Assembly (NCBI GenBank): GCA_903866255.1
Contig: CAIPMW010000076.1
Span: forward strand, 1-64,000
Length of the DNA stretch: 64,000 nt
From: an uncultured Chlorobiaceae bacterium
GTDB lineage: Bacteria; Bacteroidota; Chlorobiia; Chlorobiales; Chlorobiaceae
Direction of reading: 5' to 3'
Positions 15,766 to 32,957 of the stretch are shown here, in pieces. Every line of letters starts with the position of its first letter. Positions within the stretch are counted from its first letter, which is position 1. A model generated the notes under the pieces. The model saw only the letters and a list, made by a program, of their open reading frames with translations, did not search any database and was not told the DNA's origin. The position numbers were made by a program, and so were the translations under genes.

Positions 15766-15773
15766 GGTAGGAT

Positions 15774-16030
15774 AGTGGTCATTGCAATACCTCCCAATGA
15801 CCGCCAATGCTTGCGCCAACATGACGAATGAGCCCTTATGACTTCATTTTATTAATGTGATATTTGATGCCGTTCGCGCTGACACCTAACTCTGCCGCCA
15901 ACAAACGCTGCGTTATGGATGGTTGTATTTTCAGCAAAGCAAGTATTTTTTTCGGGGTTGCTTTACCGGTAGGTCTGCCGGTAGTCTCCCCTAAAAACTG
16001 TTCGGAAAGAAAATAAATACTGTCCACCAT
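15774..16030 (-). pseudogene. Fragment of AlbA/HATPase_c_4 C-terminus plus start of hsdR (copy of 31591-31872)
   Basis: FLGETTGRPTGKATPKKILALLKIQPSITQRLLAAELGVSANGIKYHINKMKS matches ORF 31593-32957 with fewer hinge repeats. Confidence 0.8.
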
Positions 16031-17595: not shown

Positions 17596-17699
17596 AGAAT
17601 TGAGAGAATGTAATCTCAGAGGATTTTCTGCCAGCGCATCTTCAGAAAAGCCTCCAGCGTCATAGCGACGCGTCACTCTCCATCAACGTGGTGCTCCGC

Positions 17700-17812
17700 T
17701 CAATACTCCCACTCCTCATGCTTGACCGGCAGGCGATTGAGATCGTCCCGCAGTGAGCGCCATTTTGGCAACACAATATCGGGCCGTTTGTTGTGCTGCC
17801 CACACCGTATGA
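17700..17812 (-). pseudogene. Fused fragments: internal hsdR piece joined to YgjP-like metallopeptidase C-terminus
   Basis: HNKRPDIV (hsdR QHDKRPDIVL) followed by LPKWRSLRDDLNRLPVKHEEWEY (ORF 27749-28468 C-terminus). Confidence 0.8.
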
Positions 17813-17916: not shown

Positions 17917-18560
17917 GTTTCCCCAATGAGAGTTTTTTCTCCTGAAAATAAGTTATGACAGCCATGAGACGAATCTCTTGTGCCAAGTCTTGAATCCCAA
18001 TCTTGAGTGAGGCCAGCAAGTCCTGGGATACTTCAAACGTCATTGTTTCTGTCACATAGTGAAGCTCCTTCACAAAAATCGTTCAAGCGGCATGGAACCA
18101 TCCTGTTTCTTGTTTCAAAGATACTCACTGGTGTGTTGTACTCCATCAAGAGAAAATCAGAGTGTTTCATTCAGAGTACCAATATTGAGCCTGATCTGCA
18201 ACTCCTGAAGAAGCTCTTGCAAAAAATTCAGGAGTAAATTCCAGGAGAGGGAGAAAACATCCAGGCAGAGCACATAAACGGCCTTCAGCTTCATCATCAA
18301 CCACAAAAGTCTCAAATTTGCACTTCAGCCGTGCCCAACAGGAATAGCCTCGTCTCCTGGGAAACATCTGAGCGCATAAATGCAGAGCGGAGCCCGCAGC
18401 ATCCCTGGTAAAAAAGAGAAAAGCCCTCTCGCTCTCAAGAAGCCGGTATTTTTTCCGAAGCTTTTCCGCCGAAAGCGGACAATCGCGCCGCTGGATGCTT
18501 GCCGCTGCGATGGCATGAGGCTCCAAAAAGCCCTGAAGCTTTTCGGCTTGTACGGAACGC
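17917..18560. repeat. Long direct repeat copy A (UPF0175 5' part plus downstream debris)
   Basis: Near-identical to 35463-36060 (tttccccaatgagagttttttctcctgaaaataagttatg...). Confidence 0.85.
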
Positions 18561-18660
18561 ACTCAACCAGACGAAACGTCCTGCCGGGGAAGGCATCAAT
18601 GTTGCGGTCAGCAGTGAAATAATCAACGCTCCTGTTCACAAACTGGAGGCCAGAATCACG
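18420..18660 (-). pseudogene. Frameshifted fragment resembling a THUMP-like methyltransferase C-terminal domain
   Basis: TADRNIDAFPGRTFRLVECVPYKPKSFRAF / LEPHAIAAASIQRRDCPLSAEKLRKKYRL in different frames; related sequence at ~26410-26530; 3' part also at 35940-36060. Confidence 0.45.
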
Positions 18661-20461
18661 CGCAAGCACTGTGCATATGGTAGTACTTCAATAACTCGTC
18701 AACAGCGGGATCGCCCGTTGCTGTGGTTTCATCAAACAGATTCGCAGCAACGACTCCCTTGAGCTTGTTCAACTGTGCCTCGTCAAGATGATTAAACTTC
18801 TCCCACCACTCAGTAGTTAGATTGTCTTTGTACTTGAAGCGATGGATGATAAACGCTTCCGGCATCCATAGGATTTTATGGAACTCGTCTATGTCTTTCC
18901 CGAACGCTTCTTGAAAAAAGGAGTTCCCGCGACTAACCTTGCCTTTTGTGGCGTTAAGGACAGCCTGGATTGATCGGATAAACTTGCGATTCCAATGCTT
19001 CCCAATATATTCCCGGTTATAACAATAATCAGGGTCGTCTATGGGATGATACTTCATCGGGAATGAGTAGATAGTCACACTAAGCTCATGGCATAAGTCA
19101 ATATTGATACTCAACCTGTAATACAAATCATCCGGCTTGTCCTCGAAATTGTAAAGTAAGTAGTTGGCTAATTTCTTGATACCATGCTTTGCAGCACTAC
19201 GAATAGCCATTTCGTAGGTATCTTTCATTGAGTAGTGGTCGAAAGCAATCCGCAACGGCTGGATGTTACTTTCGGCCAACTTTTCCATTTTCTTGTCAGT
19301 TACAAGACGAGCGTCTACACCCTGATTAAAATCAACGATGCGCATACGCTTCAGGCGTTTGAAATACTTTTCGTGAAGGGGACGCGCTGTATCATCAAAC
19401 TCAATTATAGCGTCTGGGCTTGCTACTTGAGCATAAAGTAGGTTGCGCTTTTCTCGTTTTAAGTAGAAGTCCGCTTGTTCCGTCTCAGGCAGTTTATTAG
19501 AAATACGGTCATACAAAACAATCATTTTCCTTGTATAGGCCCGCACGTTATACCCGTCTCGAAGGTTTTTCATCGCTATATCATATTCACTTTCAGGGAC
19601 ATACGTAGCACCGCGCCCAAATCCACACTCATTTATTTCATTGATGATTTTGTCAAAGTGTTTTGAAGCAAATACGTTGTTGTCCAGCAGGAGTAGGTCC
19701 TTTTGCGCACCGAACCGTTCATTGGTCTGCTGGATTTGCTCCTTCAGTTTTATGTAGTCCTTGTACTCCGGCTCTAACCGAGGGACAGCACAAAAAACGC
19801 ACTTGCGTGGACATCCGCGCGTCATGTAAGAGAGATAGGCATTGCTGGCAGGATACTGATAATCGATCTCATCCAAGATGGAGTAATCCAATGGCAGCTC
19901 ATCGATGATGTCATCGCTATCGTCATCCAGCATGCCTGGCTTATCCAACAAACCACAAATTGGCTTAATCCCGCATTCTTGAAACACTTGCTCGTGAAGA
20001 ATACTTGAAGCGATTCCGCCAACGATCATTCTGCCATTTTCCGAGCAGAAATTCTTTGCGTAATTGATAGTGCCGACTGTTTCACGCCAATAAAATGTGA
20101 ATAGGGTAGTGACTCCGACAACATCAAACTGAGGAAACTGGCTTTTTCGATAACGAAGGCGGTACTTATTTAACAATGATGCCTGTTCGCTATTCCTAAA
20201 GTTCGGGATAGCATCGAGTGGAACGAACTTCCCTATCTTTATATGCTCGATGAGTTTAGGGACTTGTTTTCCCAGCTTTGGGTCATTTACTTCTGCCAGA
20301 AACTCTTCACATAACAACTGTGCTGCAAAAAACTTGAGATCGCCTTTAAAAAAACGGACATCATCACCTCGTTTGCGGTAATAGGTGGCCAACTTCATAA
20401 GGCCCATCGGCGGATATTTGTTACTATAGTTCGGCTCAATCAAGAGAATATTTCGGCTCAT
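18656..20461 (-). CDS. Radical SAM protein with N-terminal B12-binding-like Rossmann region
   Basis: NILLIEPNYSNKYPPMGLMKLATYYRKRGDDV; SYMTRGCPRKCVFCAVPRLEP (CX3CX2C). Confidence 0.88.
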   Translation of the reverse strand: MSRNILLIEPNYSNKYPPMGLMKLATYYRKRGDDVRFFKGDLKFFAAQLLCEEFLAEVNDPKLGKQVPKLIEHIKIGKFVPLDAIPNFRNSEQASLLNKYRLRYRKSQFPQFDVVGVTTLFTFYWRETVGTINYAKNFCSENGRMIVGGIASSILHEQVFQECGIKPICGLLDKPGMLDDDSDDIIDELPLDYSILDEIDYQYPASNAYLSYMTRGCPRKCVFCAVPRLEPEYKDYIKLKEQIQQTNERFGAQKDLLLLDNNVFASKHFDKIINEINECGFGRGATYVPESEYDIAMKNLRDGYNVRAYTRKMIVLYDRISNKLPETEQADFYLKREKRNLLYAQVASPDAIIEFDDTARPLHEKYFKRLKRMRIVDFNQGVDARLVTDKKMEKLAESNIQPLRIAFDHYSMKDTYEMAIRSAAKHGIKKLANYLLYNFEDKPDDLYYRLSINIDLCHELSVTIYSFPMKYHPIDDPDYCYNREYIGKHWNRKFIRSIQAVLNATKGKVSRGNSFFQEAFGKDIDEFHKILWMPEAFIIHRFKYKDNLTTEWWEKFNHLDEAQLNKLKGVVAANLFDETTATGDPAVDELLKYYHMHSACA

Positions 20462-22011
20462 TGAAGACCTTCCTCGACCTTGCTGATAATTCGCTCAGCA
20501 GTTTCGCTATCTGTTTCAGTTAATATGATGCTGAATATTTTTGATATGAGCTTGCGCTCGGGTCGGCTATACTGTGAAAGCCTATCCGTACGATGCGTTG
20601 ATTTAATTTCTTTTGGTTCATCCGTGCTCACAGGCAATACTACCCTGATAACAGGTTTAGGCCGGTCGTGCTCTATCCTGGTTATAACCTTGTGCATCGG
20701 ATTATCAGCCTTCTCCTTCATTTTTTCGATGCGTACCTGAGCGGTCTCAGCTTCCTTCTTTGATTCAGCAACAATCTTTAAATCGCGTTTGCGATGATCT
20801 TTATCGACAAAACCGCTTGTTGCATCTTTTTCTTTGAATTCGGCTTCCTTTTTCTGGTATGTATCAATTTTCTTATAGGCACTATTGAAGGCCGAACCGT
20901 CATAATAGATTTTGTGAAGTTCCTCGTTGAAGTACTTTCGTAACTCTTGTTCGAACTCTGCTCGCGCCTTATTTTCGTTAAAATAATCGCGCTGCGAATT
21001 AGGAATCAAATCTTTGTTCAGAGCGAAAACCTCGCCGACAAAATAGCTGTTGCCACGATCCTCTTTGAACAACTTTTGAAGTGAGTCCTCACCGCCAATC
21101 TGTATGTTTTCTTTACGCAACCGTAGACCGCGCATCTGATTAATCTTCGGGATAGCTTTCTGAAACTTTGATAAACCGAACCACATCCAAGCCAATAACT
21201 CTCCATCTGCATCATAGAAGTTCTTGAAATCGATGTCAAAAATATCATCGTATTTGGTTCCTGTTGGTTCTTTCAGGATAGTGATATATTTCTTGAAAAT
21301 TTGTTCTCCCTCAAGCGCAATATTATATTCATCAAGTCTGAAGCCAAGCTCCTTAGCCTTTTTATACACTTCGCTACGATAAGTGAAGATATTCTGGTAC
21401 GGTACAGGGGCAACAAACGACAGATAATCTTTTACCTGCTGAAAATCGAGCAAGTCTGTGTTCTCTTGATTGATATCAATCAGCTCCACTCGAAAAAAAT
21501 GTGAGTCAAGATCGTCTGTCATCTCCTGTTCAAAGCGATTGATAGCATGCAGCATCTCATTAGCCGAGTGCTTCTTACCACGCTGGTTCTCGTCAATAAG
21601 ACTCCGCATTTTCTTGGCATCACAAACCATGATTGAAACCGTGTTCTCGCCTTTAGCAGAAGACCTAAAGACAAGCTCTTTGCAGTACGCCAAACCACAC
21701 AGTCTGCCAATTCCTCGAAATCCTTTGTCTTCACCAACTTTTTTGTCAGAATCGGCTATATTTCCAAGAGTACGTTGAAATGATGCTGCGGCTATACCCG
21801 TTGCGTCGTCTTCGATACTAATAGTTCGTTTGTCCCGATCCAGCCATATCTTAATTGTGCCTTCGTTGGGTTTCAGGATTCCTTCTTTTAAGGCTTTATC
21901 AATTTGATCACATGAATTCTGAATGTACTCGCGGTAGATTACCTTAGAGTCCTTATACATTCCTGTTGTAAGATTTTCTAAAATATTCGCACCAAAAACA
22001 TACTCAGTCAT
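20458..22011 (-). CDS. GHKL (Hsp90/MORC-like) ATPase
   Basis: N-box YREYIQNSCDQID; G1 EDDATGI; G2 DKGFRGIGRL. Confidence 0.85.
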   Translation of the reverse strand: MTEYVFGANILENLTTGMYKDSKVIYREYIQNSCDQIDKALKEGILKPNEGTIKIWLDRDKRTISIEDDATGIAAASFQRTLGNIADSDKKVGEDKGFRGIGRLCGLAYCKELVFRSSAKGENTVSIMVCDAKKMRSLIDENQRGKKHSANEMLHAINRFEQEMTDDLDSHFFRVELIDINQENTDLLDFQQVKDYLSFVAPVPYQNIFTYRSEVYKKAKELGFRLDEYNIALEGEQIFKKYITILKEPTGTKYDDIFDIDFKNFYDADGELLAWMWFGLSKFQKAIPKINQMRGLRLRKENIQIGGEDSLQKLFKEDRGNSYFVGEVFALNKDLIPNSQRDYFNENKARAEFEQELRKYFNEELHKIYYDGSAFNSAYKKIDTYQKKEAEFKEKDATSGFVDKDHRKRDLKIVAESKKEAETAQVRIEKMKEKADNPMHKVITRIEHDRPKPVIRVVLPVSTDEPKEIKSTHRTDRLSQYSRPERKLISKIFSIILTETDSETAERIISKVEEGLQ

Positions 22012-22027
22012 ATCATAATCCCCTTTT

Positions 22028-23743
22028 TTACTTGAACTGCTTGTAGATAGGTTTTGGGAATTTTAGCTTCAATAGGGAACGGAAAATGGGATTTTGTACC
22101 AGATAGTCCCCCTGCTCCAAGCGCGTCAACATGTTCTTGTACGTATTCGGTAGGCTTCCGTAGTCTCTCGTTGATGTTTCGATGGAATTGGTCCTTCCAT
22201 AGGCATGGGTGGAACAGTTCCCGGTTACACGGTCATGAATTGCCGATCGGAATTGTTCTGCAGCAAAGAGAACAACCCCCAAAGAGCGACCGCGTTCAGT
22301 AATATCGAGAATTTCCCGTAAGATAGGTGATGTTTTCGGTATCTCCTTTGATGCATACTTGTTGAGCTCATCGATAAAAATAACAATCCGTGTGGGAGGT
22401 TCTACCCCCGACTCTGCGTCATATTCCCCTAACTTCAGGTTGTAGATAGTACGGACGGCATCACCGAAAACAAACGCCTGCTTGTCCTCAGGGAGCTTTG
22501 CGATATCGATAACACATACTTCATTCTTTCGTATCTTCTTTAGTTCGTCAGCCAAGCGACACTCATGTTTACTTGAGTCAGGACGGTTAGCAAACATATC
22601 ATCATTTTTTGTGGCTTTATTTATAATACGCTTAAATTTTCGCCAACTTAGCACAGAGATTTCGTTAGACACCCGTTGTTGACCACCGCGCCCTGCGGGC
22701 TGCGACCGTTGAGAAAGCTCATCAACTCTCTCTCTGAAATCAGACCACGTATTGACACGACCACCGCCGAAATCAGGGTCAGTATCGTCTATGATTTTGC
22801 TGATGATCGCCTCCATTGTCTGCTGCGGGTCGTCAATATCGGCAAAGAGCATTTCCAGACTTTCTTTATCATCTTCATAGGAATACTTAAACTTCTGTAG
22901 CTGCCCGTAATCCATATATGTCTTTACGTCTTCCTGCAGTAGATACGTACTCTGTTTGGCCGATGTGTTGCTGGCGAAAGGCATGTAGTATTTCACATTC
23001 TTGAACGGGTCGGTAGATAAACCCAGCTTGTCATATTCTGCAAGAGCCTGATCTCTTTCACCGGGGCCATCAGCCGAGAAGTCGTTCGGACGGTCGATGG
23101 CCATCAAGTCTCTGCCTTTTACGTTGAAAATGACAAAGGCCACGGTATCATCTGGTTCATCACTACTCAAGTATTTGTCCTGAATGGCTTTCATCAGAAA
23201 CATCGCGTAAGATGTCTTGGCTGCAAGTCCTGAAATGCCCGAGATGTTTAAGTGCGCACCTTCTGGACCCAAGATGAATTTCGAATTCAAATGTACAGGA
23301 AGGGTGACTTCTTCGGCGGTTCCCTCGTACATCTTTAGCGAGCCGCAAACCAATGGATTTTGAATTTTATCCAATCCTAATGCCATCGTGATCTCTTCGG
23401 CTGTTGCAAGACACACCTTGGCATTGTTATGAACTGGCGTATACAGATTCCCGCTGTTGAAGGACACCTTTGCCTTTGCATAATTCATGCCAACACGAAG
23501 GGTCGGTTCATCAATATCGACATCACCAAAATCACTTGAGATAAAGTTTGTCAGAAAGCTCTGGGCATCCGTAATATGAGAGATGTTCTCAATCACCCCG
23601 AACGTATAGGAATTTTCGATATGCTCGACCTTGACAATATCGAATGCGTGAAGCTTCAAGTCTGAGTTTGTCCAGAAATTGAACTCATCCATGGTTGTGG
23701 GGCTTTTCTCGGTCGCCATTACACGGCCTATCAGTTTACTCAT
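22028..23743 (-). CDS. HerA-like/DUF87 ATPase with non-canonical Walker A
   Basis: HLNISGISGLAAKTSYAMFLMKAI; AFVIFNVKGRDLMAID; Walker B RIVIFIDELNKYA; GNCSTHAYGRTN. Confidence 0.85.
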   Translation of the reverse strand: MSKLIGRVMATEKSPTTMDEFNFWTNSDLKLHAFDIVKVEHIENSYTFGVIENISHITDAQSFLTNFISSDFGDVDIDEPTLRVGMNYAKAKVSFNSGNLYTPVHNNAKVCLATAEEITMALGLDKIQNPLVCGSLKMYEGTAEEVTLPVHLNSKFILGPEGAHLNISGISGLAAKTSYAMFLMKAIQDKYLSSDEPDDTVAFVIFNVKGRDLMAIDRPNDFSADGPGERDQALAEYDKLGLSTDPFKNVKYYMPFASNTSAKQSTYLLQEDVKTYMDYGQLQKFKYSYEDDKESLEMLFADIDDPQQTMEAIISKIIDDTDPDFGGGRVNTWSDFRERVDELSQRSQPAGRGGQQRVSNEISVLSWRKFKRIINKATKNDDMFANRPDSSKHECRLADELKKIRKNEVCVIDIAKLPEDKQAFVFGDAVRTIYNLKLGEYDAESGVEPPTRIVIFIDELNKYASKEIPKTSPILREILDITERGRSLGVVLFAAEQFRSAIHDRVTGNCSTHAYGRTNSIETSTRDYGSLPNTYKNMLTRLEQGDYLVQNPIFRSLLKLKFPKPIYKQFK

Positions 23744-23754
23744 TTCGATTTTTT

Positions 23755-24945
23755 TTAGAATAAGTGCAAGAAGCTCTCAGCACTGAGGTATCGTGATTTC
23801 ACATAGGACTCTGTCAGATAAATGGGGTAGAGATGATTTGCCCACCTCAAGTCAGAGCCATAACAAACAGGGTTTCTCTCATTCATCATGTAAGCGCTCA
23901 GCGTATCAACGAGCTGGCTGTCTATACCACACTCGTTTTCTTCCTCAGTAACGAGAATTTTCTCGACTTTGAGAATACCATCGAATGGAGTCCGCGTCTG
24001 TGTCTTGTCCCTCAGCCGTATATACCACACCGCGAACTTGATATCGCCCAACATAGAATTTTCATACTCTGCAACGGGTGTACGACTATAGAGTGGCAAA
24101 TCCGCGATAAAGCCAGGGTTCGGCTTGCCGTTAATATCCTCGCAAACTTCTGGATTGAAGTTTTTTGATGCACCAATAACCCAGTTGTAGTTGTTTTTAA
24201 ATGTCTGGTACTTTTTCTTGTCAGCTTTGTCTCCCTTTGTTGGGCGATACTCTAACGATCCATCCTTGACTAAGTAGTTATTCTGATTTATTTTACCTTC
24301 TCGCACAAGCTCGGCAACAAGTTTTTTCTCACACTCAATCATTCTGTCCTGGACACAAGCCGTTGCCCTATCCTCGAATTTCTTTTCGTCATTCTTGGAT
24401 GTTTTGTACGGCAGTATTGTAGAAAACTCTATACCGAGCCGAGTCAATTCATCACACTCGCTCAGTTTCTTAGCTGTAGCTGGCCAAAACCCGGATATTC
24501 CGTCGGCATCAGCGACATCCGGCATAGATAACACAAACTCTCGTTTAAATTTGACCGGTACAACTCTCTTATCGATACGGCGGCAGCATCCGACACCTAT
24601 CTGACCGGCAATCACGGGGTAAATGATGCTTCGTCCGCCTGACTGTGAATAGGCAATGTCATCCACCTTGAAAACCCTGCGAGAACCATCCAAAAAGTAG
24701 CTCAAAATCTGGTCGTTGCGGGAGGCAAGCTTCTTGCATAATCCTGACAGGGGGACATAGGTTTTGTGCGGTGTAGTTTCGGCTCTTCTTTTCCAAATGA
24801 TCTCGCTATTGCCATAATCGACTGCTGGACGGTCCGCGTGGTCAAGAACATATTTATGAGCTTTATAGCTCTTACCGCCAGTAACCTCGGCAAGTATGTT
24901 CATAACCTTGTTGTGCTTTGACTTGGCACCTAAAGAACTGCTCAT
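23755..24945 (-). CDS. NurA-like nuclease candidate
   Basis: LSYFLDGSRRVFKVDD (NurA DGS motif), WYIRLRD...FDGILKVEKI, late YPIYLTESYVKSRYLS; located next to the HerA-like gene. Confidence 0.65.
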   Translation of the reverse strand: MSSSLGAKSKHNKVMNILAEVTGGKSYKAHKYVLDHADRPAVDYGNSEIIWKRRAETTPHKTYVPLSGLCKKLASRNDQILSYFLDGSRRVFKVDDIAYSQSGGRSIIYPVIAGQIGVGCCRRIDKRVVPVKFKREFVLSMPDVADADGISGFWPATAKKLSECDELTRLGIEFSTILPYKTSKNDEKKFEDRATACVQDRMIECEKKLVAELVREGKINQNNYLVKDGSLEYRPTKGDKADKKKYQTFKNNYNWVIGASKNFNPEVCEDINGKPNPGFIADLPLYSRTPVAEYENSMLGDIKFAVWYIRLRDKTQTRTPFDGILKVEKILVTEEENECGIDSQLVDTLSAYMMNERNPVCYGSDLRWANHLYPIYLTESYVKSRYLSAESFLHLF

Positions 24946-25187: not shown

Positions 25188-25547
25188 CTAAAGTGGACCC
25201 CTGATAATGGTGTTTACCTCTATTTTTATCTGTGCTGATGAAGATTGACAGGTAAGTTTTGCTTCCTGTCGGCCGCTTTGCTGAACCAATTGGCTTTTTA
25301 TCCCCGAGATTGTATGATTGATCTGCTGCCTGATATGGTTCAATGCCTCAGATATCCCTCTCATCGCAGTATCACGGTCATCCAGAGGCAAATAGGTCAG
25401 GTCAATATCAACAGATAATCGGGGCATATTTCGTAAAAACAGATTTATTGCCGTGCCGCCTTTTAACGCAAAGACCTTTTCTTTGGCCACAAGCGGCAAT
25501 ACCTGATGCAGAAGGTCAACCTGCTGGCGATACATTGGGTCTATCAT
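25188..25547 (-). pseudogene. AbiEii/AbiGii nucleotidyltransferase toxin, C-terminally truncated
   Basis: KEKVFALKGGTAINLFLRNMPRLSVDIDLTYLPLDDR (GG..N....R.S.DIDL); ORF stops at 119 aa, well short of typical AbiEii length. Confidence 0.8.
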
Positions 25548-25571
25548 AACTTTACCAGCTCCTCTGGCAGG

Positions 25572-26312
25572 TTAAGAGCGTATTTTTTCAACATAAACAC
25601 CGCCTTTAACGATACTTCTTGCTCCTTTTCCGAGATCGAGTTGAGCGTGAACAAGGCGTTTATACCACTCATGTTCAGCTTTTTCTGCCATGTAGAGAAA
25701 AAGGCGTTTTACCTTGATTGAGCGACATTGCTCAAGAAGCTCCTGTACAACTTGTGGGCGAAGTGTTGTCAAACCTTCCATGATCTGATAGCACTCCACC
25801 AGATTCAGGGTATCAGGACAAAGGTAGAGGCATTCGAGAATTGCCCGTTCCGGCGAAGAGACACGTATGGAAAAAAAGGGCAACTGCAGATCCATGAGTC
25901 CAGTGTCGTTCGGCAGAAATGATGTTCTTTCATGGACGATCAGTTGCGGCCACTCATAGTTTCTGAACCATGCCGGTAAATGTGTTTTGATGGGAGAAAA
26001 TAAAGAGACGGTCTGTTTGCCAAGAGGCACATAATGCGCAAAACCCTGCAAGGCAAGAGCCGTGAGCACCCCGGCATGAAGCGGCAATTTGGCTTGCGTT
26101 TGCAGGGTATAGAGGGCCCCTGACCATGTCACCTCTTCACCTGGCCGTTTCAGTGCTCCGGTGCCGACGGATTCCATCCAGCCGCTCTTGCGGTAATGCT
26201 TTTGGAGGTCATGGTATATGCCACGTTGCTCAAGCCATGATGCCAAATCAACCGTGCCCTGAGTATGGTGGGCAAGTGTTGATTTTAATTTTATTCGATT
26301 ATTGGTAGTCAT
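25572..26312 (-). CDS. AbiEi-type antitoxin
   Basis: wHTH plus ALYTLQTQAKLPLHAGVLTALALQGFAHYVPLG...VSSPERAILECLYLCPD; upstream of AbiEii. Confidence 0.85.
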   Translation of the reverse strand: MTTNNRIKLKSTLAHHTQGTVDLASWLEQRGIYHDLQKHYRKSGWMESVGTGALKRPGEEVTWSGALYTLQTQAKLPLHAGVLTALALQGFAHYVPLGKQTVSLFSPIKTHLPAWFRNYEWPQLIVHERTSFLPNDTGLMDLQLPFFSIRVSSPERAILECLYLCPDTLNLVECYQIMEGLTTLRPQVVQELLEQCRSIKVKRLFLYMAEKAEHEWYKRLVHAQLDLGKGARSIVKGGVYVEKIRS

Positions 26313-26409: not shown

Positions 26410-26530
26410 GGAGCATCGGTGGAAGCTTGCCCCTGCAATGGCATGACGCTCAAGAAAAGCCCTGAAGCTTTTTGGTTTAAACGGAATGCACTCAAGCAGG
26501 CGAAACGTCCTGCCGGGGACGGCCTCAATT
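26410..26530 (-). pseudogene. THUMP-like domain debris (related to 18498-18620)
   Basis: Shared stretch aaaagccctgaagctttt..ggtttaaacggaatgcactcaagcaggcgaaacgtcctgccggggac. Confidence 0.45.
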
Positions 26531-26536
26531 TTGCGG

Positions 26537-26923
26537 TCACGTGATGGCCGAGAGTCCTTTCTGCTTCACCAGAGAAAGGAGTTTCAGTGTTGTACCAGCG
26601 GGCTTCTTGAGTCCCCGTTCCCATTGACTGACCGAATCTTTGCTCACATTCATGTACAGGGCAAAAACTCTCTGGCTCACCTCCTCACGCTCTCGCAAGG
26701 CTTTGATATCAGGAGCACTGAACGCATGAACCGGTGTCAGGCAAGCTTCGTCAAACTCGCGCATTGTCTTTTTGTCGATAACGCCAGCATCAGACATGCC
26801 TGCCATGGTTTCATGGATTGCTGCATAAGCGTCACTCTTGTATAACAAAAAATCCAATACCTCTTGAGCCAACGGTTCCGTAAGGAGTTCGGCTTCATGT
26901 TTCAATTGTTCGATGACCGTCAT
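26537..26923 (-). CDS. HTH antitoxin (HigA-type) with extra DUF2281-like N-terminus
   Basis: MTVIEQLKHEAELLTEPLAQEVLDFLLYKS + MREFDEACL..IKALREREEVSQRVFALYMNVSKDSVSQWERGLKKPAGTTLKLLSLV. Confidence 0.7.
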   Translation of the reverse strand: MTVIEQLKHEAELLTEPLAQEVLDFLLYKSDAYAAIHETMAGMSDAGVIDKKTMREFDEACLTPVHAFSAPDIKALREREEVSQRVFALYMNVSKDSVSQWERGLKKPAGTTLKLLSLVKQKGLSAIT

Positions 26924-27481: not shown

Positions 27482-27748
27482 AACAATACCTCCCGCAACA
27501 TGGTTACCAGAAATTGTTGAAATATATGTCCCAAACCCTCCGGCTCCTATGGTATAAGTTAATCAGAATGAAAGAAATGTATACCCTTATCAATATCGGA
27601 AACTACAGTTCACTACCTCAACCTTAGCCCCAAGCTCCTCAGCAATGAGCAATTGATCATCGGGCCTCAAGAATATATTCATTTGGTCTCTCTCCCCCAC
27701 AGGTTATAACGCAGTTCTGCCTCCCACGTTCAGAATTGCCGATGGTGC

Positions 27749-28468
27749 TCAATACTCCCACTCCTCGTGCTTGACCGGCAGGCGATTCAGATCGTCGCGC
27801 AGTGAGCGCCATTTTGGCAAAATGGCATCCATGAGGGCAATGAATCGTTCATTATGGTGATGCTCCAGAAGGTGAACCATTTCATGCACAACAATGTATT
27901 CGAGGCACTCTTTCGGCTTTTTGGCGAGTTCGAGGTTTACCCATATTCGCCGGGCATCAGGGTTGCAGGTGCCCCATTTCGTCTTCATTTTCTTGATGCC
28001 AAACTCATTGACCCGCACCACGACCCTTTTCTCCCATAAAGCAATGAGATCAGGAATGGCAGCCTTCAACTGTTTTCGATACCATGCATCAAGCACCGAC
28101 TGTTTTTTCTCCTGACTGGCATCAGGGCGGATATACAAAAGTATTGCGCTATGCTGCACGTCAACAGCCGACGGAGCTTCCCGCTCAACAATTTTCAGCA
28201 AGTAACGTTTTCCCCAGAGATAATGGCTCTCCCGATTCAGGTACTCCCGTGGAGTTTCGCGCTCCTGCCCGCACAACTTGCGCTGCTGCTTTTTTATCCA
28301 ACCCAGCCGTGAAATGGCATAGAGGCGAAGGGTGTTGATATCCATGCCGACGGGGGCCGAAAGACGCACCCTCCCTGCTGGCGGGTGAACACTCAGATGG
28401 ATATTCCTGATATCTTTCAGCACCACATCAACAGGAATATCTCCGATAACAACTCTGGTCACCATCAA
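27749..28468 (-). CDS. M48/YgjP-like (DUF45) metallopeptidase
   Basis: MKTKWGTCNPDARRIWVNLELAKKPKECLEYIVVHEMVHLLEHHHNERF (HExxH). Confidence 0.92.
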   Translation of the reverse strand: MMVTRVVIGDIPVDVVLKDIRNIHLSVHPPAGRVRLSAPVGMDINTLRLYAISRLGWIKKQQRKLCGQERETPREYLNRESHYLWGKRYLLKIVEREAPSAVDVQHSAILLYIRPDASQEKKQSVLDAWYRKQLKAAIPDLIALWEKRVVVRVNEFGIKKMKTKWGTCNPDARRIWVNLELAKKPKECLEYIVVHEMVHLLEHHHNERFIALMDAILPKWRSLRDDLNRLPVKHEEWEY

Positions 28469-31400
28469 TACTCTCTTTGCCGTTCAATAACGAGAAAGAG
28501 CCGCTCCACCTCGTCAGCGTCCTGCAGCACTTCGAAAAGCGCCCCTTTAATAATATTCTCTTTTGGTTTGACACCGCGCCAGCCATTCGGCCGGACTCGT
28601 TTGACTGTTTCATCCAGCATCATCGCTAGAAGCAATTTTTCATCCTGCAACCCTTTATAGCCGGTCGGCTCATCGGACAGGTCAAGGTCAACATCTCCAA
28701 TCCGGTCAAGCTTCAGGTTGTTGTACAATGCGCGGCGACCGGGAGTATTCAATTGCGCGGGAGTCTCTTCAGCATGGCCTGATGCTACGCGGTTAGCCAG
28801 TTCGGCCATCTGCTTGAGATACGCCTCGTACTCAATGGCTTTCCGACGGCGCGACGCAATGAGTTCATCAAGCAAAAGCGACATACTCTCATAAAATGCC
28901 GGATCGTTCAGGTGATCTTTGATGATTTTGCTTCGAACATTGTTCTCGATCGTCTCGGCAATCGCATCCCTGCTGCTTTTGATCCCTTCGGGCAGGTTGT
29001 TGATCGCTTCCGCAATACCGGATTTCACAATCAGCTCCAAAAGCGGCAGAGCATCAAACGGAGAGATCTTTCTCGGCTCATCGGCTTCGATATAGGTATC
29101 GATGAGATGGCGCATATCCGCCTCATAAGCCTTCAGGTCAATGCTTTCACCGCTGGCATGGCGGATGATTTCGCGCAACTTGACCGAGCGGTCGAGAGTT
29201 TTTTTGATGCGCTGCACCTCAGTGGCGCTATAGCATGCGGCATCAAGCTCGTCGGCAATACCGCTGTAGGCCCTCACCAGCATGGCTGTTGCCTTGTAGA
29301 GGGCAGAGCGGAGCGGCTCTTTTGCTGCAAGCTCATCAGGAATTTCACTGTTGCCGCAGAAAAAATGGATGTGCTGAAGCTCGCCTTTCGGAGGCTCAAC
29401 CGGTTCGCAGATCAGTGCAAGCGCCTCAAGCGCATTGTCGAGCCGCTCCCGCCCCTTTGCCAGCCGGTCTTTCATCAGAATGTCAGATTCTCCTGCGCCG
29501 GTATCGCTCTTATCCAGCTCTGAACTATAAACCGTATAGACCTTCAGAGCATCATTGACCTTTTTGAAGAGATCCTTATAATCGACGATGTAGCCGAACT
29601 CCTTGTCCTCCCCATCGAGGCGATTGGTGCGGCAGATGGCCTGAAAGAGAGCATGATCCTGCATACTTTTATCGATATAGAGGCTGGTGCAGCTTGGCGC
29701 ATCAAAGCCGGTCAGCAGTTTATCGACCACAATCAGCAGCTTCATCGTTGCCGGTTGCTCCCTGAAAAGCCGTTTGGCATTGTCTTCGTAGCTCTCTGTT
29801 TTTGACTTTCCCGGTACCGGCTCAACACTCTGCAGGAGCGCCATGTAGGTGTTGTAGATCGACTCCTTGTCCGTCTCCGTGTTGGCTCCGGTATCCTCCG
29901 TTGTAATGTCTCTCGTTTGCGGATTGCAGGAGGTAATCACCGCGCACTTGCCTTTAAACACCGACTTCTGAAACAGTTCAAAATACTTGCAGGCCTCGTA
30001 GATACTTGAAGCAACCAGAATGGCATTGCCTCGATGGTTACTGAGACGGGGCTTCACACTGAAATCAAACACAATATCGTTGACCACCCGGTTCATCCGT
30101 GACCGGGAGCTGAGCAGATGCTGCATTGTTCCCCACTGCTCGCGAAGAGCGCCCTTCTGCCACTCATTCAACCCCCTCGTTTTGGCATCGAACCATGCGT
30201 CAATTTTCTCCTTCGAGCCCAGTTGCTGGTCAATATCCCGCGCCTCATACACCAGATCAAGCACCACCCTGTCCTCAACGGCCTCGTTGAACTTGTAGGT
30301 GTGAATGTAGCTCCCGAACACGTCAAGGGTGGTTGCCGCATCTTTTTTCAGGAGAGGCGTGCCGGTAAACCCGACAAAGACCGCGTTGGGCATGAGAGCC
30401 TTCATGGTTCGATGCAGCTTGCCGCTCTGTGTCCGGTGGCACTCATCAACAAAGACAAAAACATCCCCCACCGTATGGCCGGGCTGTGATTCAAGCTCCC
30501 GGATAAACTCCTCAAAATTATCCACCCCTTTTCTGCCAAACTTGTGTACCAGTGAGCAGAGCAGACGCGGAGCAGGAAGGCTGAGCTGCTTCATCAGGTC
30601 ACTGCCGCTGGTGGTGCGCCTGATTGTTTCTCCCGCATCGGTAAAAACTCCGGCAATCTGCTTGTCGAGTTCATCGCGATCAGTCACAATAACCACACGG
30701 GCGGCAGGCTTGTTCTCCAGAATCCAGCGGGCCAGCAGCAGCATCACAATACTTTTGCCGCTCCCCTGCGTGTGCCAGACAATGCCACCCCTGAACACCT
30801 CGGCAGAGTGCTGCGCCGCCTTGACACCAAAATACTGATGTACCCGTGGCAGCTTCTTTACCCCGCCATCAAAGAGCACAAAATCGTGCAGCAGCTCGAC
30901 CAGGCGGGATTTCCGGCAGATCTTGAGCAGATATTTGTCGAGCTTGAAACGGGAGTTATCCTCCTCATCCTCTTTCCATTGCAGAAAATACTTCTCCTCC
31001 GTGCCGACCGTCCCATACTTCAGCCCTTCCGAATCGTTTCCGGCAAAAATGAACTGCACGGTTGAAAAGAAAGGAGCAATAAACTCGGGGCGTTGATTGA
31101 CAAGGCTTTGGCGGATGCCGTCACCCAGCGATACCCTGCTGTTCTTCAACTCCAGCACGCCAACCGCTATCCCGTTAAGGTAGAGCACAATATCGGGCCG
31201 TTTGTCGTGCTGCCCATACACCGTCACCTCTTCGGCAATGGCAAAGTCGTTCAGCTCCGGGTGGTCGGTGTTGATGAGCCTGACGGTTTCACTCTTCTCA
31301 CCCGCCGCCGCTTTTACCGGAACACCGTAGTGAAGGAGGCTGTAGACCTTGCGGTTGTTTTCGTAAAGCGTACGGTTGGGATTATTTGCCTCAGTACGCA

Positions 31401-31596
31401 GTTCATGGATGGCTTTGGTACTCTGCGCCGACGTGTAGCCGTTCCCCAAAAGGCCGGCCATGAGAAGAGACTCTTCGATATTGCTGTTCCCCTCGCGATC
31501 CTTCCAGTTGCCGAGAGAGCGGTAGCCAAGCTCTTTGGTGAACAGGGCAAGCACGCGGTTCTGCGTCTCACGTTCAGAGTTGCCGATGGTGGTCAT
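28465..31596 (-). CDS. hsdR: Type I restriction endonuclease subunit R
   Basis: RPDIVLYLNGIAVGVLELKNS; GGIVWHTQGSGKSIVMLLLARW; VFVDECHRTQSGKLH; FVGFTGTPLLKKD. Confidence 0.97.
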   Translation of the reverse strand: MTTIGNSERETQNRVLALFTKELGYRSLGNWKDREGNSNIEESLLMAGLLGNGYTSAQSTKAIHELRTEANNPNRTLYENNRKVYSLLHYGVPVKAAAGEKSETVRLINTDHPELNDFAIAEEVTVYGQHDKRPDIVLYLNGIAVGVLELKNSRVSLGDGIRQSLVNQRPEFIAPFFSTVQFIFAGNDSEGLKYGTVGTEEKYFLQWKEDEEDNSRFKLDKYLLKICRKSRLVELLHDFVLFDGGVKKLPRVHQYFGVKAAQHSAEVFRGGIVWHTQGSGKSIVMLLLARWILENKPAARVVIVTDRDELDKQIAGVFTDAGETIRRTTSGSDLMKQLSLPAPRLLCSLVHKFGRKGVDNFEEFIRELESQPGHTVGDVFVFVDECHRTQSGKLHRTMKALMPNAVFVGFTGTPLLKKDAATTLDVFGSYIHTYKFNEAVEDRVVLDLVYEARDIDQQLGSKEKIDAWFDAKTRGLNEWQKGALREQWGTMQHLLSSRSRMNRVVNDIVFDFSVKPRLSNHRGNAILVASSIYEACKYFELFQKSVFKGKCAVITSCNPQTRDITTEDTGANTETDKESIYNTYMALLQSVEPVPGKSKTESYEDNAKRLFREQPATMKLLIVVDKLLTGFDAPSCTSLYIDKSMQDHALFQAICRTNRLDGEDKEFGYIVDYKDLFKKVNDALKVYTVYSSELDKSDTGAGESDILMKDRLAKGRERLDNALEALALICEPVEPPKGELQHIHFFCGNSEIPDELAAKEPLRSALYKATAMLVRAYSGIADELDAACYSATEVQRIKKTLDRSVKLREIIRHASGESIDLKAYEADMRHLIDTYIEADEPRKISPFDALPLLELIVKSGIAEAINNLPEGIKSSRDAIAETIENNVRSKIIKDHLNDPAFYESMSLLLDELIASRRRKAIEYEAYLKQMAELANRVASGHAEETPAQLNTPGRRALYNNLKLDRIGDVDLDLSDEPTGYKGLQDEKLLLAMMLDETVKRVRPNGWRGVKPKENIIKGALFEVLQDADEVERLFLVIERQREY

Positions 31597-32957
31597 TGCA
31601 AGACCTCCCAATGGCCGCCAATGCTTGCGCCAACATGACGAATGATGCCTTCTGACTTCATTTTATCAATGTGATATTTGATGCCGTTCGCACTGACACC
31701 TAACTCAGCCGCCAACAAACGCTGCGTTATGGATGGTTGTATTTTCAGCAAAGCAAGTATTTTTTTCTGGGTAGTTTTACCGGTAGCTTTACCGGTAGTT
31801 TTGCCGGTAGTTTTGCCGGTAGTTTTACCGGTAGTCTCCCCTAAAAACTGTTCGGAAAGAAAATAAAATACTGTCCATAGACCTGTCCGCTCGTAACGCA
31901 GCTCTGGCTCAGGAACCCCCGCCGTTACACACTCCTGCATGATACGCTCAATGCCACGCCCCCAAGCTTCAATCATGCCTGCACGAAAAAAAGCATTGGC
32001 AACATCAGGATTGAATGGCTGTGAGGAGTGTTTGCCAAGCAGCCGTTCTAATGTCCAATCAGAGGGCAATTGCCCCGAATTCCAGATCATCAGCTTGTCC
32101 GGATAGACACTTATCTGGATTGGAATACCGCTTGCATAATCCTTGTGCACAACGGCATTCAGAATCGCTTCACGTAACGCGGTCTCCGGAATGGGATAGC
32201 TCTCAATTCGCTGCAAGCCTTCGTAAGAGATCCATGCTTTCAGATATTTGGCTTTCAATATCGATATGGTCTGGTTCACCTGTGAAAAGAGGTCGCCATG
32301 CACTTCGTCCTGATACCGTAAATCGACATTATTTTCAAAAAATCCGATTTTGATATATGCTCCGGTAAAGAAACGTTCAGGATCAGGATGAAACAGCAAG
32401 GCGACAGCACGCTTGAGGTACTTACCCTCCACCAGGTGCAATTGGTCGAGCAGAAGCTCATCCGATTCATCAATAATTTCCGGCGTGAGTCGCTGGCTCT
32501 TCAGTGCCTGCCTGCGAAAATAGGCAAGCGCATTGGTATCCAGATCGCTGACCGATACGTGAGGCAAAGGTACCCCATCCCAATGCAAACCCTGCTTACC
32601 CAGAAGAAACCTGTGCAATGCTGCCCCTTTAAGCTCCTGTTTCGTACTGCCACTTCGGTAAAAGTACTCCCCTTTGTAGCTCACAGGATATGGATATGCC
32701 TCCACAATTATCTCCAGAGTCTCTTTGCCCGCCTCATCACAGAGATTCACATCCACCATGATGCCAAGAATATCGCGCACCTTGTTCGGGATATCCTCCA
32801 TCAGCTTGCGAGCATTATGGATACCAACAACAGTGCCCTTGTCATTTTGGCCAATAACCAGCACACCACCTTCGGCGTTGGCAAAACCGCAAATCCATTT
32901 CAGGTACTCCTCCCTCCAGGACTCCTTCCACTCAATATGCTGGTTCTCTTGCGTCAT
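31593..32957 (-). CDS. AlbA_2/HATPase_c_4 ATP-binding regulator with TGK repeat hinge
   Basis: IEWKESWREEYLKWICGFANAEGGVLVIGQNDKG; REAILNAVVHKDYASGIPIQISVYPDKLMIWNSGQLP; GETTGKTTGKTTGKTTGKATGKTTQ. Confidence 0.93.
   Translation of the reverse strand: MTQENQHIEWKESWREEYLKWICGFANAEGGVLVIGQNDKGTVVGIHNARKLMEDIPNKVRDILGIMVDVNLCDEAGKETLEIIVEAYPYPVSYKGEYFYRSGSTKQELKGAALHRFLLGKQGLHWDGVPLPHVSVSDLDTNALAYFRRQALKSQRLTPEIIDESDELLLDQLHLVEGKYLKRAVALLFHPDPERFFTGAYIKIGFFENNVDLRYQDEVHGDLFSQVNQTISILKAKYLKAWISYEGLQRIESYPIPETALREAILNAVVHKDYASGIPIQISVYPDKLMIWNSGQLPSDWTLERLLGKHSSQPFNPDVANAFFRAGMIEAWGRGIERIMQECVTAGVPEPELRYERTGLWTVFYFLSEQFLGETTGKTTGKTTGKTTGKATGKTTQKKILALLKIQPSITQRLLAAELGVSANGIKYHIDKMKSEGIIRHVGASIGGHWEVLQ
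31770..31837. repeat. 12-bp tandem repeat (ttttaccggtag) coding TGKT hinge
   Basis: Consecutive units ttttaccggtag/ttttgccggtag. Confidence 0.95.

Follow-up and report, generated by a model that had tools for sequence, protein, structure and literature searches.

The window, that is, the whole 64,000-nucleotide stretch of DNA analysed here, comes from a 2.8 Mb genome placed by GTDB in Bacteroidota and includes a magnesium-chelatase H subunit (BchH) gene, from which we infer that the host is probably a green sulfur bacterium similar to Chlorobium. On its minus strand, positions 18656-24945 encode a cassette of four genes in the order NurA, HerA, GHKL ATPase and radical-SAM (rSAM) enzyme, spaced by 11 bp and 16 bp and then joined by a 4-bp overlap; all four open reading frames were present where the initial annotation had placed them, and the distances agree exactly. 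Every motif quoted there was likewise found, and is conserved in relatives according to the alignment counts given below for each family. The cassette genes, and an AbiE pair that is a neighbour and not a member of the cassette, are the following:

23755..24945, minus strand: NurA-family nuclease, first cassette gene (396 aa; AF2/Foldseek, family profile, tblastn)
22028..23743, minus strand: HerA-type DNA translocase (571 aa; phmmer, profile, Walker motifs)
20458..22011, minus strand: GHKL (HATPase_c_3) ATPase (517 aa; Pfam, HtpG profile)
18656..20461, minus strand: rSAM enzyme with an N-terminal cobalamin-domain-like fold (601 aa; Pfam, AF2/Foldseek, motifs)
25188..26312, minus strand: AbiE type IV toxin-antitoxin (TA) pair, AbiEi intact and AbiEii truncated (Pfam/PADLOC)

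The 396-aa protein, previously called NurA from a short motif, had no Pfam match at E<=0.1, and it is the predicted fold and profile comparison, rather than Pfam, that place it as a divergent member of the family. Searched with Foldseek against the PDB, its AF2 model (pLDDT 87, pTM 0.86) retrieved DrNurA (7f6d, 9e-12) and SsoNurA (2ygk, 1e-7) and nothing else at E<=0.001, so that the structure prediction supports the earlier call. A profile built from 64 NurA relatives had the NurA of the Deinococcus complex 7f6d as its sole PDB match (E 0.009), and tblastn matched the NurA of Marinitoga camini virus 1 (1e-13). Two acidic motifs, F[LIVM]DG[ST] (76/76 sequences) and [KR]DGS (74/76), presumably contain the catalytic residues, the individual roles being inferred. 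HerA was not recognised by Pfam either; its assignment as a HerA-type ATPase is secured by phmmer and profile matches to D. radiodurans HerA (7f6d; 8e-37 and 1e-56, respectively). Walker A (GxSGxAxKTS) and Walker B (FIDELNK) are intact in all 81 sequences, and the protein therefore meets the criterion for a HerA/FtsK translocase, namely, membership of the HerA sequence family plus both Walker motifs.

The third protein matches Pfam HATPase_c_3 (1.3e-8) and, by profile against the PDB, HtpG (4e-10 across positions 11-91), with the N-box EYxQNxxD conserved in 71/73 and GFRGIGR in 69/73 sequences. The description as a GHKL/Hsp90-type ATPase holds for the ATPase domain, but the likeness to Hsp90 ends beyond it: PDB profile matches are confined to approximately positions 9-92, the Hsp90 middle and C-terminal domains are unmatched, and an Hsp90 chaperone was rejected as an identity. 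The fourth protein scores slightly below the curated Pfam cut-off for Radical_SAM (27.3 against 29.5; E 4.7e-6), and its identification as a radical-SAM enzyme rests on the cluster motif CxxxCxxC, present in 72/72 sequences, together with an rSAM fold in the predicted structure (pLDDT 92.5); the motif DFNQGxDxR is also invariant. The closest Foldseek matches of the model are MgmA (1.5e-8), TsrM (3e-8) and AprD4 (9e-6), all rSAM enzymes with a cobalamin-type N-terminal domain. The cobalamin-binding motif DxHxxG occurs ahead of CxxxCxxC in none of the 72 sequences, and we accordingly rejected a typical (class B) B12 enzyme; B12 binding remains possible because the fold resembles those of TsrM and MgmA despite the missing motif.

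The conservation of the four-gene unit was assessed by six-frame profile searches of 83 loci, 80 of them from a HerA-driven scan of a genome collection and three added from elsewhere. All four families are present at 72 of these loci, 70 of which keep the gene order of the window, with additional genes or a distant rSAM gene in the two others (Bacteroidota). Here, "all four" denotes family presence only: locus L028 is included though its rSAM gene lies at a distance upstream, and in Bacteroidota loci with a second GHKL gene, other genes separate the first GHKL gene from the rSAM gene. At L036, all four families were found by six-frame search, with two of the genes lying under antisense ORFs. 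Among the eleven incomplete loci, eight leave the contig within ~1.8 kb of HerA or miss sequence at the place of the gene; the remaining three are L033 and L029, with an HNH protein for GHKL, and L070, without a close rSAM gene and with a distant one upstream. Recurring at 72 of 83 independent loci, the four-family arrangement far exceeds chance, and the grouping proposed from the window alone is borne out in other genomes. Moreover, the four families diverge in step, their pairwise distances being correlated across 62 loci (r 0.84-0.94), a figure to which shared ancestry contributes. Selected by HerA, the locus set is uninformative on the frequency of solitary HerA.

The carriers belong to at least eight phyla, plus viral contigs, and comprise Bacillota, Bacteroidota, Synergistota, Planctomycetota, Chloroflexota, Spirochaetota, Thermodesulfobacteriota, Melainabacteria and one archaeon, the labels of MAG carriers being those of the submitters' titles. 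Several loci have a second GHKL gene, accompanied by an NsnB/PDC-M55A/HEC-03B-like AAA ATPase and a 288-aa protein (L007, L008, L066), by a 340-aa protein (L068, L072, L073, L090) or by a 260-aa protein (L047, L050, L056), the last of which has no match in Pfam or NCBIfam and is cyclase-like by eye only. The proteins replacing GHKL at L033 (Synergistota) and L029 (Planctomycetota) are of the HNH type. Since GHKL and HNH occupy one slot, a role in recognition or initiation is suggested, that is, its occupant may recognise the target or make the first break. The "Hsp90-like switch" proposed in the initial annotation stays among the possible roles of GHKL, all of which are inferred; with an HNH nuclease able to fill the same position, other roles are also possible.

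The cassette sits in defence-rich, mobile surroundings. The truncated AbiEii gene (25188-25547) encodes 119 aa spanning positions 2-111 of the 238 in the Pfam model, and further neighbours of the cassette are a ParE-like/HTH pair, an SLFN_AlbA_2 gene and a Fic gene. Type I restriction genes, read from sequence motifs with no Pfam run, flank the cassette on both sides, so that the island of restriction and TA genes described previously is confirmed by Pfam/PADLOC hits and, for the type I genes, by motif. Among relatives, the flanks (109 ORFs) matched 157 PADLOC families at 1e-12, among them AriA, pAgo, PDC-S01, PDC-S05, PDC-S30, AbiL, AbiE and type I specificity, a family as a rule being matched by only one ORF; the controls (105 ORFs) matched one family. 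The controls were four Bacteroidota genomes, a small set not matched by taxon to flanks that span several phyla, and PADLOC models are often redundant; the result therefore gives a clear direction and no enrichment factor.

The island also contains diverged direct repeats. One pair, 18526-18610 and 26455-26539 (88%), brackets the cassette together with the AbiE block; others link 17698-17805 with 27747-27820 and 31186-31219, and 15771-16017 with 31585-31867. These others resemble fragments of neighbouring peptidase and hsdR-like genes. This pattern, as far as it can be read from sequence, suggests repeated insertion and duplication.

Within the phylum of the host, the cassette is rare, with cassette-type NurA in 3/297 genomes and rSAM profile matches in 4/297; the fourth rSAM-positive genome, from the same genus as the host, retains only the C-terminal third of the gene (L102:2294-2956). 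The nearest HerA sequences are those of Bacillota, with a MAG at 89% and Desulfosporosinus at 84%. This rarity, the remnant in the same genus and the position of the closest relatives in another phylum indicate that an accessory cassette has been gained and lost, and we conclude that the cassette is mobile and has spread horizontally. The rSAM remnant adjoins an MNT/HEPN-like pair, near rnpA/dnaA-like genes.

Cassettes also occur on IMG/VR viral contigs (L004, L156). A plasmid search with NurA gave no match, and a viral-contig search with a single rSAM sequence found no relative; queried with an rSAM alignment, the viral contigs yielded ten loci. Two of these ten (L004/L155 and L156) have the full NurA-HerA-GHKL set, and in four (L157, L158, L160, L164) a ParB-like gene, named by eye, precedes the rSAM gene. 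Marinitoga camini virus encodes NurA, HerA and a 360-aa rSAM protein. Beside the rSAM gene, no GHKL was detected in this virus, in L151 or in L157-L159. Such homologues on viral contigs and plasmids, several of the former with only the rSAM and ParB-like genes, would fit a function of the mobile elements themselves, for processing DNA or for modifying their own DNA against restriction by the host, in place of host defence. We consider this improbable, given that most loci lie in bacterial contigs where phage structural genes are not evident close by. Defence cassettes, besides, are often carried by phages and plasmids.

Outside the four-gene cassette (type A), the rSAM enzyme is found with other nuclease modules. 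On alphaproteobacterial plasmids, including the conjugative pNL1, a DndB-like (PF14072) gene is followed by the rSAM gene and then by a GHKL gene of the cassette family (6e-94); most of these records also have a PIN_8 protein with a second GHKL near the rSAM operon (type B). In a sample of 399 Bacillota genomes centred on a known carrier, the rSAM gene was detected in six further genomes, three with NurA-HerA-GHKL and three in CxC-ABC operons (type C). The latter encode a DndD-related ABC ATPase (TIGR03185, 6e-42 to 1e-50) with the CxC motif in 3/3, an XPB-like SF2 helicase with an HKD-like motif in 2/3, and a small protein whose identity as DndE is unconfirmed because Pfam DndE failed to match it. 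Their helicase, ABC and small-protein order agrees with published CxC/Pbe systems, in which phosphorothioate (PT)-modification or cytosine-methylase genes hold the modification role (PMC10853773). The initial annotation had described a resection motor coupled to an Hsp90-like switch and a radical-SAM modifier; the motor is indeed part of the cassette, but the constant element across the wider family, a point new here, is the rSAM enzyme and not NurA-HerA.

Two of the loci without this simple layout, L028 and L070 (Paenibacillaceae), combine NurA-HerA-GHKL with a DndB-like protein, a 314-aa protein, a 663-aa GHKL and two B12-type rSAM enzymes, at a scale of nine genes. Among the rSAM-bearing plasmid regions (L105, L120, L122), L120 has a patatin-like phospholipase adjoining a DncV-like cyclase (CBASS-like), ~10 kb from the rSAM operon.

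The company of DndB-, ParB- and CxC-type partners suggests DNA as the inferred substrate of the rSAM enzyme, which is retained when the nuclease modules swap and most likely marks DNA. Our best reading, in which we place about as much belief as doubt, is a mobile, modular, restriction-modification-like defence family in which NurA-HerA degrades DNA. The sequences show what the genes are, that they are linked, that modules are exchanged, that the cassette has spread horizontally and that it lies in defence-rich surroundings; the anti-phage function, the role of GHKL and the DNA mark are inferred. NurA-HerA, by the biochemistry of its family, would act as a motor-nuclease, threading double-stranded DNA and degrading it; GHKL would be an ATP-driven clamp or sensor controlling its loading or activation; and the rSAM enzyme would probably write (or read) a chemical mark, protecting the host's own DNA while invading DNA that lacks the mark is destroyed. 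More broadly, and only tentatively, the rSAM enzyme may define a superfamily of modular, restriction-modification-like systems in which it writes an unknown DNA modification, served by interchangeable readers and destroyers (GHKL or HNH with NurA-HerA, PIN_8 with GHKL, CxC-ABC with HKD helicase) and by ParB/DndB-type helpers. Against the best reading, we count that the nearest solved structures of the rSAM enzyme act on protein or small molecules, and that type A lacks DndB, DndE or a specificity subunit; the canonical DNA-repair role of HerA-NurA and the small, taxon-unmatched enrichment control were also weighed. We know of no restriction-modification system with an rSAM protein as its DNA-modifying enzyme.

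The structural matches leave room for a different kind of defence, with the rSAM enzyme modifying a partner protein, such as GHKL or NurA, or making a small antiviral molecule, as viperin does, and with GHKL-gated NurA-HerA or cell suicide as the effector. MgmA, one of its closest folds with TsrM and AprD4, is a protein glutamine methylase, GHKL is the usual companion of rSAM, and for another conflict system it has been suggested that rSAM enzymes modify its peptide effectors (PMC7159879). We nevertheless hold this explanation to be rather unlikely: the rSAM enzyme occurs without NurA-HerA in types B and C, and in the five cases named above without a detected GHKL, so that none of the candidate partner proteins accompanies it everywhere, and the association with DndB/ParB-like and CxC-ABC proteins favours DNA.

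Canonically, HerA-NurA serves DNA repair and end processing. In archaea and in Deinococcus, the complex acts in DNA-end resection (PMC9960219, PMC4351679), and a distantly related HerA-NurA pair from the phylum of the host (L101) accompanies SbcC/SbcD, both of which would suit an accessory repair or recombination module for end resection spread by mobile elements. We regard such a module as improbable for the cassette clade, which is without Mre11/Rad50, rare, patchy and located among defence genes; furthermore, in a 2026 study, the T. kodakarensis complex was unable to make recombination-ready 3' overhangs, and a defence (antiviral) role was proposed (PMC12977600). The cassette shares with the complexes of Deinococcus, Sulfolobus and Thermococcus both protein families, adjoining genes and catalytic motifs, but differs in its linkage to GHKL and rSAM instead of Mre11-Rad50 and in being rare, mobile and associated with defence islands. 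A housekeeping Mre11-Rad50-HerA-NurA operon was rejected, there being no sbcC/sbcD in the window cassette, in contrast to L101.

Returning to the restriction-modification-like defence that we prefer, SIR2-HerA and HerA-DUF4297 are likewise defence-island systems in which a HerA hexamer-type ATPase is paired with an effector enzyme, whereas the window cassette uses NurA as effector, adds two further conserved proteins and has no PADLOC SIR2 or DUF4297 match. Dnd/CxC-ABC PbeABCD systems (Rakesh et al. 2024, PMC10853773) resemble it through the homologous rSAM in CxC-type operons and the DndB-like partner in variants, but ABC ATPase, DndE, HKD helicase and DndB are all missing from the window cassette. 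The HerA-like ATPase mad8 of MADS shows weak similarity to the C-terminal half of HerA (1.4e-9), and no further mad component was matched by the four proteins. PADLOC-DB 2.0 gave only weak matches for HerA, 0.003 for NurA and none for GHKL or rSAM. No publication describing the four-gene combination was found in a search that did not extend to most subscription papers or any preprints; within the literature that could be searched, the cassette is undescribed and, as the initial annotation supposed, matches no characterised defence system. We file it as a variant of HerA-nuclease and restriction-modification-like defence, the defence itself being inferred and not demonstrated.

The known role of HerA-NurA is mainly the processing of DNA ends; if our best reading is correct, a distinct clade of it works within a coherent, widely transferred immune cassette. 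The swaps of nuclease modules around one rSAM family predict a new DNA modification in a way that can be tested directly, and the rSAM enzyme, taken as search query instead of the nuclease, offers a route to further such systems. On one of the viral contigs reached in this way (L164:2391-7937), two ParB-like genes, a PP-loop (PAPS-reductase-like) gene and the rSAM gene, named by eye, stand consecutively, possibly forming a phage DNA-modification cluster.
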